Assembly: GCA_034439655.1 (NCBI GenBank)
Contig: JAWXAU010000168.1
Location: forward strand, 1 to 34,765
From: Bacteroidota bacterium
GTDB lineage: Bacteria > Bacteroidota > Bacteroidia > UKL13-3
Direction: 5' to 3'
DNA: 34,765 nucleotides
Every line of letters begins with the position of its first letter. Position 1 is the stretch's first letter. Below, in pieces: positions 1,798 through 34,765 of the stretch. Under the pieces are notes generated by a model, which was given only the letters and a program-made list of their open reading frames with translations, did no database searches and was not told the DNA's origin. The position numbers and the translations under genes are program-made.

Positions 1798-3135
1798 TCA
1801 CCTCTCAAACTCCAACCTCTGTCCCGCCAAAACCGCATGCAGATTGCCGTTATCAAACACCATTTCCCCATTCACAAAAGTATATAATATTGTACTACTG
1901 AAAGTTGTATTCTCAAGCGGGCTCCAACCACATTTGTATAATATATTTTCTTTGGTTACAATATAATATTGGTTCAAATCAACGAGTACCAAATCCGCAG
2001 CATAACCTTCACGTATAAAACCACGTTTGCTTATTTGGAAGAGCTCCGCAGGGGCATGACACATTTTTTCTACTAGTTTTTCTAAAGTTATTTTTCCTTG
2101 TTTTACTTTTTCCAACATCATTTGCAGGCCATGTTGCACAAGTGGCAAACCTGCGGGAGATTTCGTATAAACTTGCTGCTTTTCTTCCCAAGTATGTGGA
2201 GCATGATCGGTAGCTATAATATCAATTCTATCATCCAAAACCGCTGCAAAAACTGCATCTCTGTCACTTGCTGTTTTAATGGCAGGATTACATTTTATTT
2301 GATTGCCCAACGTATGATAATCTTCATCGCAAAACCATAAGTGATGCACACAAGCTTCGGCAGTAATTTTTTTATCTTTGAGTGGAATGGTATTATCAAA
2401 TAATTCCAATTCTTTTTGTGTAGTTATATGTAATATATGCAAACGTGTACCATGCTTCTTGGCCAAGTCAGCCGCCATTTTGCTTGAGGAATAACATGCT
2501 TCCGCATTGCGAATTACAGGATGAAATTGCGGTGGAATATCCTCACCATATTGTGCAATATATTTTTGCAAATTCGCTTTAACCATCACGTCGTTTTCAC
2601 AATGTGTAGCAATTAGGGTAGGGGCGTTTGCAAATATTTTGGCCAGCAGATGTTCATCATCCACCAACATTTCACCCGTGGAAGAGCCCATAAATATTTT
2701 AATTCCACATACTTTTTTGGGATCAGTCCGCATGAGTTCATCATAATTGTGCAAACCTGTTCCCATAAAAAATGAATAGTTTGCAGGCGAACAATGTTTG
2801 GCAATCTGATATTTTTCTTCGAGCAATTCTTGGGTAAGTGCAGGTGGATTGGTATTGGGCATTTCCATAAATGTGGTCACGCCTCCTGCTACGGCAGCAA
2901 TACTTTCGCTAGCAATGGTAGCTTTATGCGTAAGCCCAGGTTCACGGAAATGAACTTGGTCATCAATAAGTCCAGGCAGCAAGTGCAAACCTGAACACTC
3001 AATCACCTTATCTGCCAGCTCAGCACTGATACCTGCTGCATCAATACGATCTATTAAACCATCTTTCAACAGCACATCAGCAACAAGGCTGCGGCCTTCA
3101 TTGACTATGGTGGGATTTTTCAACAAAATTTTCAT
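1798..3135 (-). CDS. pyrC: Dihydroorotase
   Basis: Cyclises carbamoyl-aspartate to dihydroorotate in de novo pyrimidine synthesis; cytosolic metal-dependent amidohydrolase. The 445-residue protein has DDQVHFREPGLTH near residue 60, MPNTNP, the lysine segment GIKIFMGSSTGEM, metal-ligand regions ATHCEND and LHILHIT, and the catalytic aspartate in DIIATDHAPH. In place of the usual HxH it has QVH. From memory, the Bacteroidetes enzymes, including the Porphyromonas one, carry this same QVH, so it is a family trait and not a defect. The start is ATG at 3135 (MKILLKNPTIVNEG); an upstream TTG would add 13 residues with no family counterpart. The MFS gene is divergent, with 59 bp between start codons. 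Confidence 0.95.
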   Translation of the reverse strand: MKILLKNPTIVNEGRSLVADVLLKDGLIDRIDAAGISAELADKVIECSGLHLLPGLIDDQVHFREPGLTHKATIASESIAAVAGGVTTFMEMPNTNPPALTQELLEEKYQIAKHCSPANYSFFMGTGLHNYDELMRTDPKKVCGIKIFMGSSTGEMLVDDEHLLAKIFANAPTLIATHCENDVMVKANLQKYIAQYGEDIPPQFHPVIRNAEACYSSSKMAADLAKKHGTRLHILHITTQKELELFDNTIPLKDKKITAEACVHHLWFCDEDYHTLGNQIKCNPAIKTASDRDAVFAAVLDDRIDIIATDHAPHTWEEKQQVYTKSPAGLPLVQHGLQMMLEKVKQGKITLEKLVEKMCHAPAELFQISKRGFIREGYAADLVLVDLNQYYIVTKENILYKCGWSPLENTTFSSTILYTFVNGEMVFDNGNLHAVLAGQRLEFER

Positions 3136-3194
3136 ACCAACACAAATTAAGGGAATATTGAGGCAACTTTGCAAATTATATTTAAAATATTTTT

Positions 3195-4460
3195 ATGAGC
3201 GACAAAAATCAAACCTCGATGTTGCTGCCCGTTTTCCTCACGGTCTTTATAGACTTGGTCGGTTTGGGTATCATCATCCCGATTATTCCGGATTTGATTT
3301 TGGACTTCCGCCATAAGAATGACCTGCTCGCAGGCATCGGTATCGACGAAAGATATATTATACTTGGTTTCCTACTTTCCAGTTTCCCTATCGCACAGTT
3401 TTTTGGAGCACCCATACTTGGTGCACTCAGTGACCGTTTCGGGCGAAAACCAATTCTTATTATATCATTAATTGGTACTTTGTTGGGTTATATAGTTTTT
3501 GCCATCGGTATTGCAGAACAAGATATATATATATTATTTGCCTCACGCATGTTGGATGGATTTACTGGTGGAAATATTGCTATTATCATGTCGAGTATTT
3601 CTGATGTGAGCGATGTAAAAACAAAAACAAAAAACTTCGGATTGGTAGGAATGGCCTTTGGTTTGGGATTTATATTAGGACCTTATATAGGAGGCAAATT
3701 TTCAAAACCTGAATTTGCAAATTGGTTCAATGATTTAACTGGCTTGCATGTTTCAAATTTGTCCATGCCCTTTTGGTTTGCCGCCCTGCTGTGTACTTTA
3801 AATATTTTATTTGTAATATATATGTTTCGAGAGACCTTGATTGGACGACGGCATACGCCTATTTCATTGACCACAGGTTTCAAAAATATATATAAGGCTT
3901 TCAAAATGCCCAACCTGAGAACGCTGATGATAGTGTCGTTTTTATTTATATTGGGATTCAATTTCTATACACAATTTTTTAGTCCGTATGTGATGAAAAA
4001 ATTTAATTGGGATATCGAAAATGTCGGTGACTTTTTTGCCTTTATTGGCTTGTGCAGTGCGTTGGGACAAGGATTTATTGTACGCAGATTTTCGGGTAAA
4101 GTAGCCCCACAAAAAATATTAAATATATCATTATTGGTGATGGCAGCAGGAATATTTTGCCAAATACTGCCTGAACCGGGTAATGATTATCAATTATTTT
4201 TAGCGGTTCCTTTTATCGCTTTATCACAAGGATTTTCTACACCCAATATGAATACTTTAATTTCTATGCAAGCAGATGCAAAAACACAAGGAGAAATATT
4301 CGGCATCAACCAAAGTATACAATCATTAGGCATGGCAATACCTGGAATTATAGCGGGTTATCTTTCTACCTATAGTGGAATGTTGCCCATCATCACCGCT
4401 ACTGTTGTGATTTTATTGGGATGGGCAGTATTTAAATTTACCTATAAAGCAGTTAAATAA
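3195..4460 (+). CDS. MFS transporter, TetA-like (DHA1) branch
   Basis: A 421-residue inner-membrane protein with about 12 predicted hydrophobic helices. It carries the MFS motif A (SDRFGRKPIL, near residues 79-88) in the loop after helix 2, and a first helix (FIDLVGLGIIIPIIPDLI) like that of tetracycline/multidrug efflux proteins. Proton-coupled export of a small molecule is likely, but the substrate cannot be told from sequence. The last codons and stop (KAVK-TAA) lie inside the left copy of the 28-bp direct repeat that bounds the restriction-modification cassette. Before that insertion this gene would have ended 10 nt upstream of the recN start, so the two probably formed one operon. Confidence 0.9.
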   Translation: MSDKNQTSMLLPVFLTVFIDLVGLGIIIPIIPDLILDFRHKNDLLAGIGIDERYIILGFLLSSFPIAQFFGAPILGALSDRFGRKPILIISLIGTLLGYIVFAIGIAEQDIYILFASRMLDGFTGGNIAIIMSSISDVSDVKTKTKNFGLVGMAFGLGFILGPYIGGKFSKPEFANWFNDLTGLHVSNLSMPFWFAALLCTLNILFVIYMFRETLIGRRHTPISLTTGFKNIYKAFKMPNLRTLMIVSFLFILGFNFYTQFFSPYVMKKFNWDIENVGDFFAFIGLCSALGQGFIVRRFSGKVAPQKILNISLLVMAAGIFCQILPEPGNDYQLFLAVPFIALSQGFSTPNMNTLISMQADAKTQGEIFGINQSIQSLGMAIPGIIAGYLSTYSGMLPIITATVVILLGWAVFKFTYKAVK

Positions 4461-13920: not shown

Positions 13921-13965
13921 CCCGCCGCGGCGGGGTTAATGATAAATTATTTCCGCCACCGGCGG
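13921..13965. repeat. Two GC-rich mini-palindromes
   Basis: CCCGCCGCGGCGGG (13921-13934) is a perfect 14-bp palindrome, and CCGCCACCGGCGG (13953-13965) is a second with a 3-nt centre. Both stand between converging genes in otherwise AT-rich sequence and may double as terminators. Confidence 0.65.
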
Positions 13966-23251: not shown

Positions 23252-24577
23252 ATGAAGAAATATATTAGGTTCATATTTACTCTCTTTATAATACATTGTG
23301 TATTAATTGCAAATGCACAAAAGCATATTAAAAAATATGTAATACCAATTCTTAAACTAAAATAGTTCTCTGCCTGTGGCGGATTTAGTTTTTAGAATGG
23401 TAATACCGATCAAATTAATTCGATAGAACCAGACTCAACTGATTATTCTGACTTAGAAGCGATAGGAAATGCAATTGGAGATGCCAGAATTGTTATGCTT
23501 GGAGAACAAGACCACGACGACGCCCCAACATTCTTAGCCAAAACAAGATTAATAGAATATTTGCATGAGAAAAAGGGATTTGATGTATTAGCATTTGAAA
23601 GTGATTTTTTTGCATTGAATTATGGTTGGGACAATCTTAAAAAAGTAGAAAGAGAGATTGATACTTTTATTCGGTTTAATATTTTTCCAGCATGGACATA
23701 TTGCCATACCTGCTCAAATTTATTTTATGACTATATCCCTAAAACATACAAAACCGCAACACCGCTCATTATCTCAGGATTTGACAACCAGATGCATCTA
23801 AACTATTCTTCAAAGAATCTAGTTGCAAAGCTTGATAGCGTAGTAAGATTATTGAATTTGTCAATTACTAAAATGCCCGAATACTCATCTGAAGTAATTG
23901 CACTTTTAACATCGCAAATGAATTGGTATGATATAGAAGAAAGGGATACTACACTATTCGCAAAATATGATTATTATCTCAATCTTATAAAATTACAACT
24001 AGGTGAAAAACTGAACACCAATGATTTTTGGTATCTGGTAGATGAAAATTTAATTCAAAAATATTTGAGGATTAAAGGTAATGGAAATATCGACAATAGA
24101 GACTATCAAATGGCTCAAAATTTAAAATGGCTAAGTGAAAATAAATTTCAAGATAAAAAAATAATTGTGTGGACCGCAAGTTTACATATCTCAAAAAAAT
24201 CTGAGAACTATCAAATAAAATACAAGGTGGATGACACATTTATGGGAACTTATTTTGCAGAAGATACTATTGCTTTAAGAAGTACTTATTATCTTGGGTT
24301 TACTTCTTTTAATGGGCAAGTGGGCTGGGTAGGGGAGAAAGGGCATAAGATACTGGAACCTCAGTATAATAGTTTTGAGAATTGGATAAGCAAAAAATCT
24401 AATTTCTCATTTGTAGATTTCAAAACATACAACAATATTTTCGATAAAAAGCAAGAAGCTTTCAATATGTCAGGTTTTGGACATCATAATACCGACATGT
24501 ATTGGACTAAAATATTTGATGGTGTTTTCTTTATAAGAGAAATGTATCCTTGTAAAAATATATTTCAATGGAAATAG
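23252..24577 (+). pseudogene. Erythromycin-esterase-like secreted protein gene interrupted by a palindromic element
   Basis: A signal peptide frame (MKKYIRFIFTLFIIHCVLIA, then NAQ) starts at ATG 23252. It hits TAG at 23363 inside a 70-bp imperfect palindrome, with a second TAG at 23393. The same frame then reopens as [20 protein letters not shown] and [20 protein letters not shown], followed by [13 protein letters not shown]-type helices and [14 protein letters not shown], as in the erythromycin esterase (EreA/EreB-like, DUF-type hydrolase) family. The usual GExxHG is GEQDHDD here. ATG 23495 lies within the conserved core, so starting there would lose the first strand and the signal. It is most likely inactive. 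Family members in Bacteroidota have varied, mostly unknown substrates; macrolide resistance should not be assumed. Confidence 0.7.
23339..23407. repeat. Imperfect palindromic element inside the esterase-like gene
   Basis: The arms ATTCTTAAACTAAAAT (23348-23363) and ATTTAGTTTTTAGAAT (23383-23398) are near reverse complements around a GC-richer centre (GCCTGTGGCGG, 23372-23382). GTAATACC flanks both sides as a direct repeat (23339-23346 and 23400-23407), but it is itself near-palindromic. The element carries both stop codons of the interrupted gene. Confidence 0.7.
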
Positions 24578-27072: not shown

Positions 27073-27333
27073 AGTTAATTTACGATTTGTCACTCTGTAC
27101 CGATAGCTATCGGGATTATCGAAGAGTTACGAGTTACGATTGACGATGTACGATGTACGATGTACGATTGATGCGGCAGGATAATTGAATACATTTTCTT
27201 ATTCTTATATATTTAGTTTTAAATTTTCTAACCCTTGCTACTTGCTACTTCCCGCCACGGCGGGCTTACTACTTCTAGCTTCCCTTTGCCGCGGCGAACC
27301 CACTTCCTACTCCCCACTTCTAGCTCCCCACTT
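27073..27333. other. Intergenic spacer of stacked short repeats
   Basis: Contains the palindrome CCGATAGCTATCGG (27100-27113), three tandem CGATGTA units (27144-27164) within a GTTACGA/GTACGA-rich run, CCCGCCACGGCGGG (27251-27264), GCCGCGGC (27290-27297), and repeated CCCACTTCTAGCT / ACTTCTAGCTTCCC phrases up to the glycosyltransferase stop. I see no gene and no riboswitch-like fold. Confidence 0.65.
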
Positions 27334-34486: not shown

Positions 34487-34501
34487 TCCGCCTTCGGCGG
34501 A
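34487..34501. terminator. GC-rich hairpin downstream of the PorE-like gene
   Basis: TCCGCC, loop TTC, GGCGGA: a 6-bp perfect stem of the CCGCC..GGCGG repeat family. It is about 190 bp after the stop and has no T-run, so a terminator role is uncertain. Confidence 0.35.
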
Positions 34502-34540: not shown

Positions 34541-34610
34541 CTCTCTACAAATTCTTAATCGATTCAGCAGTTCTAATTCTGAATTTGGGTTTAGGGTTTG
34601 ATTTTTTATT

Positions 34611-34765
34611 AGACCTCTTTCATAATTGAAAATTGTAAAGTCCAGCAATCAGATTAAGTCTCAGGTTATATTTCTTTCTTCTGTTCCTATATTTTCCAGC
34701 AATAATTCTGAATATTTTCAAACAGCGAATTATGTTTTCAACCAAAACTCGGCTTGATGAAATTA
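34611..34765 (-). mobile_element. IS5-like insertion sequence, 3' end (runs off the window)
   Basis: The minus strand encodes the last 47 residues of a DDE transposase (34620-34763): SSRVLVENIIRCLKIFRI and YRNRRKKYNLRLNLIAGLYN. This matches the end of IS5/IS1031-type (DDE_Tnp_4) transposases, in which R.(x)VE..I...K.FR......R is the catalytic glutamate region. The sequence AGACCTCTTTCATAA (34611-34625) just outside the coding end is a likely terminal inverted repeat. The rest of the element lies beyond 34765. Confidence 0.7.

Follow-up and report, generated by a model that had tools for sequence, protein, structure and literature searches.

REPINs consist of two palindromes with inverted outer ends that together form one unit. 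The repeat described here, from the genome of a Bacteroidota bacterium (assembly GCA_034439655.1), has the same anatomy, with two palindromes, inverted outer ends, a single unit and about 200 copies, but differs from REPINs and REP doublets with a RAYT in that this genome has no Y1_Tnp gene and that there is evidence for target duplication. Our comparison applies to REPINs other than the GTAG/CGTC-tagged REPs (PMC3733652). Bacterial MITEs form the second obvious reference (general accounts in PMC10969869 and PMC3049150). One of them, MITECca01 of Cardinium, also a member of the Bacteroidota, is an element of about 240 bp with 169 mostly intergenic copies (PMC9769881); its parent belongs to the IS982 family. 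The repeat resembles Correia elements, RUP and MITECca01 in being short, non-coding, high-copy and mostly intergenic, with terminal inverted repeats; it differs in its probable 3-bp TWA duplication, in having halves that are each a hairpin covarying between species, and, unlike MITECca01, in having no known parent IS. BOX of Streptococcus pneumoniae is likewise a modular stem-loop repeat with a variable number of modules, whereas the element here has two unit types, inverted outer ends and another sequence, phylum and module order (the two were compared by plan only). Pneumococcal repeats have been found inserted into one another (PMC3049150). A literature search covering titles, the beginnings of abstracts and part of the matching papers returned no description of this repeat.

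We assign a probability of roughly 0.7 to the reading that a palindrome lying in an esterase-like gene of this genome represents an incomplete copy of a MITE-like, non-autonomous two-hairpin element. What appeared to be a single-gene curiosity belongs to a family of repeats; many contigs of the assembly terminate at members of this family, and some members have taken up other mobile elements.

A palindrome in an esterase-like gene

The window, the whole stretch of DNA analysed, comprises 34,765 nucleotides. On its forward strand, the frame opened by the ATG at 23252 begins with a signal-peptide-like segment (called by eye), is interrupted by TAG codons at 23363 and 23393, and beyond them encodes, still in phase, an esterase core. 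The 5' piece of the gene (23252-23362, forward strand) holds the start, the signal-peptide-like segment and the initial residues and stops at the first in-frame TAG, and its last codons, from 23343 on, are already element sequence; the 3' piece (23410-24577, forward strand) holds the erythromycin-esterase-family core. The ATG at 23495, the first in-frame ATG, GTG or TTG beyond the stops, opens an ORF of 360 aa (23495-24577) that matches PF05139 with E 3.7e-14. Frame and domain match together confirm the original prediction of a signal peptide and an esterase core in one frame, split by a palindrome with two TAG codons. Most likely, these two codons break the gene, which at best yields a shortened protein from ATG 23495 that lacks the signal peptide. 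Might the insertion instead be an in-frame spacer of a working gene, passed by read-through or restart? The common frame of the two pieces and the 360-residue ORF would fit such a gene, yet we consider it very improbable, given the two TAG codons, the lack of any in-frame ATG, GTG or TTG between the second of them and 23495, and the fact that a product restarted at 23495 would lack the signal-peptide-like start as well as about 30 residues alignable with relatives.

The esterase-like protein was matched in 5 of the 58 genomes searched, this one included. A homologue in another genus (locus L039, genome G010) reads AQIGIKKYVKKNMSPIKTIQPDSNDYSD where the window protein reads AQKHIKKY followed by the insert. 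This relative of the gene is 45% identical, collinear (AQ..IKKYV) and without the spacer. No empty site was seen among the genomes compared, which include no strain of the same species.

GTAATACC stands at 23339-23346 and again at 23400-23407, and between the two lies an imperfect palindrome that folds as single-stranded DNA at -13.1 kcal/mol, against a shuffle mean of -4.1 (z -4.89; 0 of 200 shuffles as stable), so that an imperfect palindrome flanked on both sides by this repeat is indeed present. The length of 70 bp first given for the element was too small, as the palindrome is the left half of a larger two-hairpin unit. The GTAATACC pair was considered as a target duplication and rejected: its left member is the left end of the element, and its right member is the linker between hairpins A and B, GGTAATRCC in full copies. 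If, as is probable, TWA is the duplicated target, its left member here is instead the TAA at 23340-23342 (forward strand), which occupies the place that the left TWA has in 101 full copies. Next comes hairpin unit A (TACC...GGT; 23343-23401, forward strand), with a GGCGG-type secondary palindrome in its loop and the two in-frame TAG codons, and then, by alignment to full copies, the A/B linker with the first bases of unit B (TAATACCGA; 23401-23409, forward strand). The rest of unit B is missing, and with the right half of the element absent, no right TWA can be recognised.

Similarity starts at 23338-23342 and ends at 23409 in the 40 places listed, the window copy itself excepted; the window copy's own similarity stops at 23409, nine bases into linker and unit B. 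Since 105 profile hits in this genome have both ends, the window copy was probably complete at first and lost B afterwards. Its insertion would have struck the esterase-like gene at GTAA, where a relative has codons V-K, with the loss of the right half as a later event. Among other shortened copies, L051 ends almost where the window copy does, L104 and L115 break off within A, and L029 within the B spacer. A second copy in the window, consisting of unit B and the right end and cut by the contig end, occupies positions 1-98 of the forward strand (nhmmer, model 69-137; exact right-end match at 72-98). The notion of a small mobile palindromic element caught in a gene therefore stands as far as a repeated mobile element of about 200 copies is concerned, but the mobile unit is two hairpins and the window copy a truncated left half.

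Copies and anatomy of the double hairpin

The assembly (205 contigs, 3.5 Mb, 96.8% complete) contains 199 matches to the left end (31 bases; 83 + 116) and 216 to the right end (27 bases; 97 + 119), each with at most 3 mismatches, and reversed-pattern controls gave 0 matches for either end. The further copies that the original prediction implied thus number about 200, and the sequence is not single-copy. A profile search of the fetched loci gave 174 distinct hits, 105 with both ends, 41 with the left end only, 26 with the right end only and 2 with neither; many of the one-ended hits are cut by contig ends. Mean divergence among 45 copies of this genome is 0.094. Once the element and one TWA are removed, 6 of 89 copies leave a frame of at least 450 nt running across the insertion point; with a +1 or +2 shift, none does (0 of 89). 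The test fixes the net length modulo three only. Flank midpoints fall within frames of at least 450 nt in 123 of 176 cases, against the 6 of 89 copies inside, and the copies therefore avoid genes. Phage and plasmid records held no match to one copy (L002), and viral contigs none to two exact patterns of the element. Rfam 15 at gathering score gave 0 matches on the window, and on nine copy-bearing loci its sole hit was a SAM riboswitch lying outside the element (L011, 103-217, 70.2 bits).

Full copies have the form TWA, TACC-hairpin A-GGTAATRCC-hairpin B-GGTA, TWA, and measure 103-169 bp, mostly 119-169 (96 two-ended copies). The left arm of A can alternatively pair with the right arm of B as a terminal inverted repeat, with 17 pairs in the consensus fold, none of them changed on both sides, and this arm-to-arm pairing competes with hairpins A and B. 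The terminal inverted repeats are imperfect, about 27 bp long and partially similar (about 19 of 27 by eye). Short, non-coding, present in many copies and bounded by recurrent ends and terminal inverted repeats, the element has the features of a MITE. Tandem variants occur as A-A-B, with a AGAATGTTATACC junction, and as A-B-B.

Of 146 A units, 132 have a GGCGG mini-palindrome as their loop and 11 a plain loop of the TAGTC type. The plain loop of L158, AAAATAGTCCAAAGATTATTTT, has the same 22 bases as that of a genus mate (G002), and the GGCGG loop looks derived for this reason; by eye, no GGCGG core was seen in the related elements of other genomes. From these comparisons, the core looks like a secondary loop replacement. 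It had been proposed to link the element to the GC-rich mini-palindromes of the window: the core is present and the mini-palindromes exceed chance (5 free matches against 0.11 expected; 4 against 0.00 in another count), but as a replaced loop the core does not define the element. The free-standing mini-palindromes (TCCCGATAGCTATCGGGA and CCGCC..GGCGG types) are at 512-529, 27098-27115, 13922-13965, 27252-27263 and 34488-34500, and the loops of the element are filled by sequences similar to them. The spacers of hairpin B were measured in 114 copies; in 108 of them they are 10 bases (28 copies), 19-22 bases (46) or 50-51 bases (34) long, and they are, by eye, palindromes nested in palindromes.

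Relatives in other Bacteroidota and covariation of the stems

With stricter filters, a covariance model built from 45 copies, chosen among 60 listed, has matches in 12 of the 64 genomes of the family, counting this one. Eleven weak matches, fetched of 12 listed, have the same plan by eye, the ends being least clear in L189. Two genus mates gave 0 matches to the right end and none to a 156-base window query; the covariance model does detect a single diverged copy in G002, one of the two. In named genomes, an exact core pattern occurs in 15 stretches: nine in the uncultured Bacteroidetes AlinenLipids_bin-7249 (G087), two in Crocinitomix sp. SJ859 and one each in four other Bacteroidota records. 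G087 has 14 right ends, and seven of its copies, each of 122 bases, are near-identical, with a mean divergence of 0.016.

The cross-genome alignment holds 16 sequences from 15 genomes (16 matches passed of 17 loci given), with 90.7% of cells pairing. In this alignment, which was fitted to the structure of the model, 27 of 40 pairs are changed on both sides, and the covariation score is 0.268 against 0.097 for shuffled and at most 0.041 for slid alignments. Covariation among the copies of this genome alone is modest, with change on both sides in 3 of 45 pairs, a number reached by 292 of 500 shuffles; 26 cells are changed on both sides, above all 500 shuffles. As the aligned sequences indicate, the two-hairpin plan is kept across related genomes with different, covarying stems.

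Are these hairpins a structured RNA or a terminator-like repeat, kept for a function in the host? Covariation of both hairpins across genomes points in that direction, as does the folding of four copies far better than shuffles (z -7.35 to -13.26). We nevertheless judge a host function to be quite unlikely in view of boundaries that recur at TWA, the six of 89 copies within reading frames, the absence of right-end matches from two genus mates apart from the one diverged G002 copy found by model, the near-identity of the seven G087 copies, and the lack of an Rfam family on the window or on copies in the nine loci.

Target duplication and the search for an enzyme

The conserved double hairpin and the probable duplication raise a question: which enzyme moves the element, and does it read the hairpins or the linear ends? 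Of 101 full copies, 97 have A or T as the middle base of TWA on both sides, and in 70 of these the two bases agree (Fisher p 3e-5); the TWA pairing is the best of 1113 flank-offset pairs tested. The two flanking 3-mers are identical in 65 of the 101, while 2000 permutations gave 47.0 on average and never more than 62. The first 46 copies alone gave no clear duplication, a reading that the 101-copy set weakened. Five of the six copies inside frames have identical TWA pairs, and the sixth has TCA/TTA. In other genomes, 19 of 25 pairs of 3-mers are identical (middle base, Fisher p 0.0017), a count in which a good part of the 25 comes from one genome, G087, the L236 row took the inner linker as left end, and L233, L237, L241 and L251, with unlocated ends, are left out, L237 being the same place as the counted L243. 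Many of these 3-mers are TTA, so part of the agreement is composition.

Non-identical pairs make up 36 of the 101 in this genome and 6 of the 25 elsewhere. The mismatched pairs of this genome are mostly A/T swaps with T and A intact, a pattern poorly explained if a clean duplication had simply decayed; possible causes are recombination among the copies and misassembly of short reads. Inheritance within subfamilies was also considered as the cause of the TWA agreement and set aside, since no clear association with internal subfamily markers stood out when the two were tabulated. On the statistics of the flanks, a target duplication of 3 bp, TWA, is likely. A transposase supplied in trans would recognise the ends and cut TWA with a 3-bp stagger.

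A search of this genome for PF01797 and PF01609 brought to light neither a helper nor an autonomous parent. PF01609 (DDE_Tnp_1) has two matches here, one in a Tn5/IS50-like IS and the other in a gene next to a copy, with ends that do not match the element; in six relatives it has 15 loci in four genomes, where the best end similarity, 12 of 30, equals that of background loci and no match to the model was obtained.

A REP/REPIN-type element, with two inverted hairpins moved by a RAYT (HUH/Y1) and no target duplication, would account for the paired hairpins with inverted outer ends, the roughly 200 copies, the tandem variants and the position of most copies outside genes, and Y1_Tnp genes are common in the family, occurring in 53 of 62 genomes, one of which has 15 matches. 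This genome, however, gave 0 matches to Y1_Tnp at E up to 0.001 (assembly 96.8% complete), so that the element has the anatomy of a REPIN but, lacking a resident RAYT, is not grouped with REPINs. When 30 Y1_Tnp loci, one per genome, were scanned with R1, a model made from this genome's copies only and from which diverged copies may escape, the best E was 0.14. The agreement of TWA at both ends argues for target duplication and hence also against a REPIN, and we regard this origin as unlikely.

Ordinary DDE transposons are not known to need covarying internal hairpins, and such hairpins count against the MITE-like reading. A bolder reading is a paired-hairpin family of Bacteroidota, its plan retained across genera while the sequence changes, in which an enzyme would recognise these hairpins, not linear repeats, and yet leave a 3-bp TWA duplication, so that REPIN-like anatomy would be combined with a cut-and-paste-like footprint and no resident RAYT in this genome. 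We put such a family forward tentatively and think it rather doubtful.

The truncated, MITE-like copy remains our preferred reading, and the transposase genes met within copies or next to them are those of other elements, either nested or adjacent. The transposase of L183 was rejected as a parent: it is part of a Tn5/IS50-like IS (about 430-1860 of that locus, with Tnp_DNA_bind and DDE_Tnp_1 pieces in separate ORFs) that lies in the loop of hairpin A with its own ends and a 9-bp near-repeat, recognised by eye. That of L184 (DUF772/DDE_Tnp_1, IS1182-like by eye) was rejected as part of a copy, as it ends about 120 bp before it. In G087, an IS110-family transposase element (NF033542, E 4.2e-56; PF02371, PF01548) stands between the halves of a copy, inside unit B (L240, about 2790-4340), and could suggest that the repeat is a deletion derivative of an IS110-family element. 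At that point, however, the sequence is uninterrupted in the other full G087 copies read and partly in other genomes, so the IS110 element most likely went into a copy. This was the only IS110 element met, it sits inside a copy with which it does not share outer ends, and the Tn5/IS50-like insertion in L183 provides a parallel case; descent from an IS110-family element is highly improbable.

A third repeat, with AGACCTCTTTCATAATT ends, lies inside hairpin B of L114, L119, L121 and L081 and is a putative IS. With L183, L240 and the AGACCTCTTTCATAATT insertions all inside copies, the copies have evidently received other elements. The same type of end, known from at least seven other places in the fetched loci, among them the four in unit B just named, also runs off the right end of the window (34610-34765).
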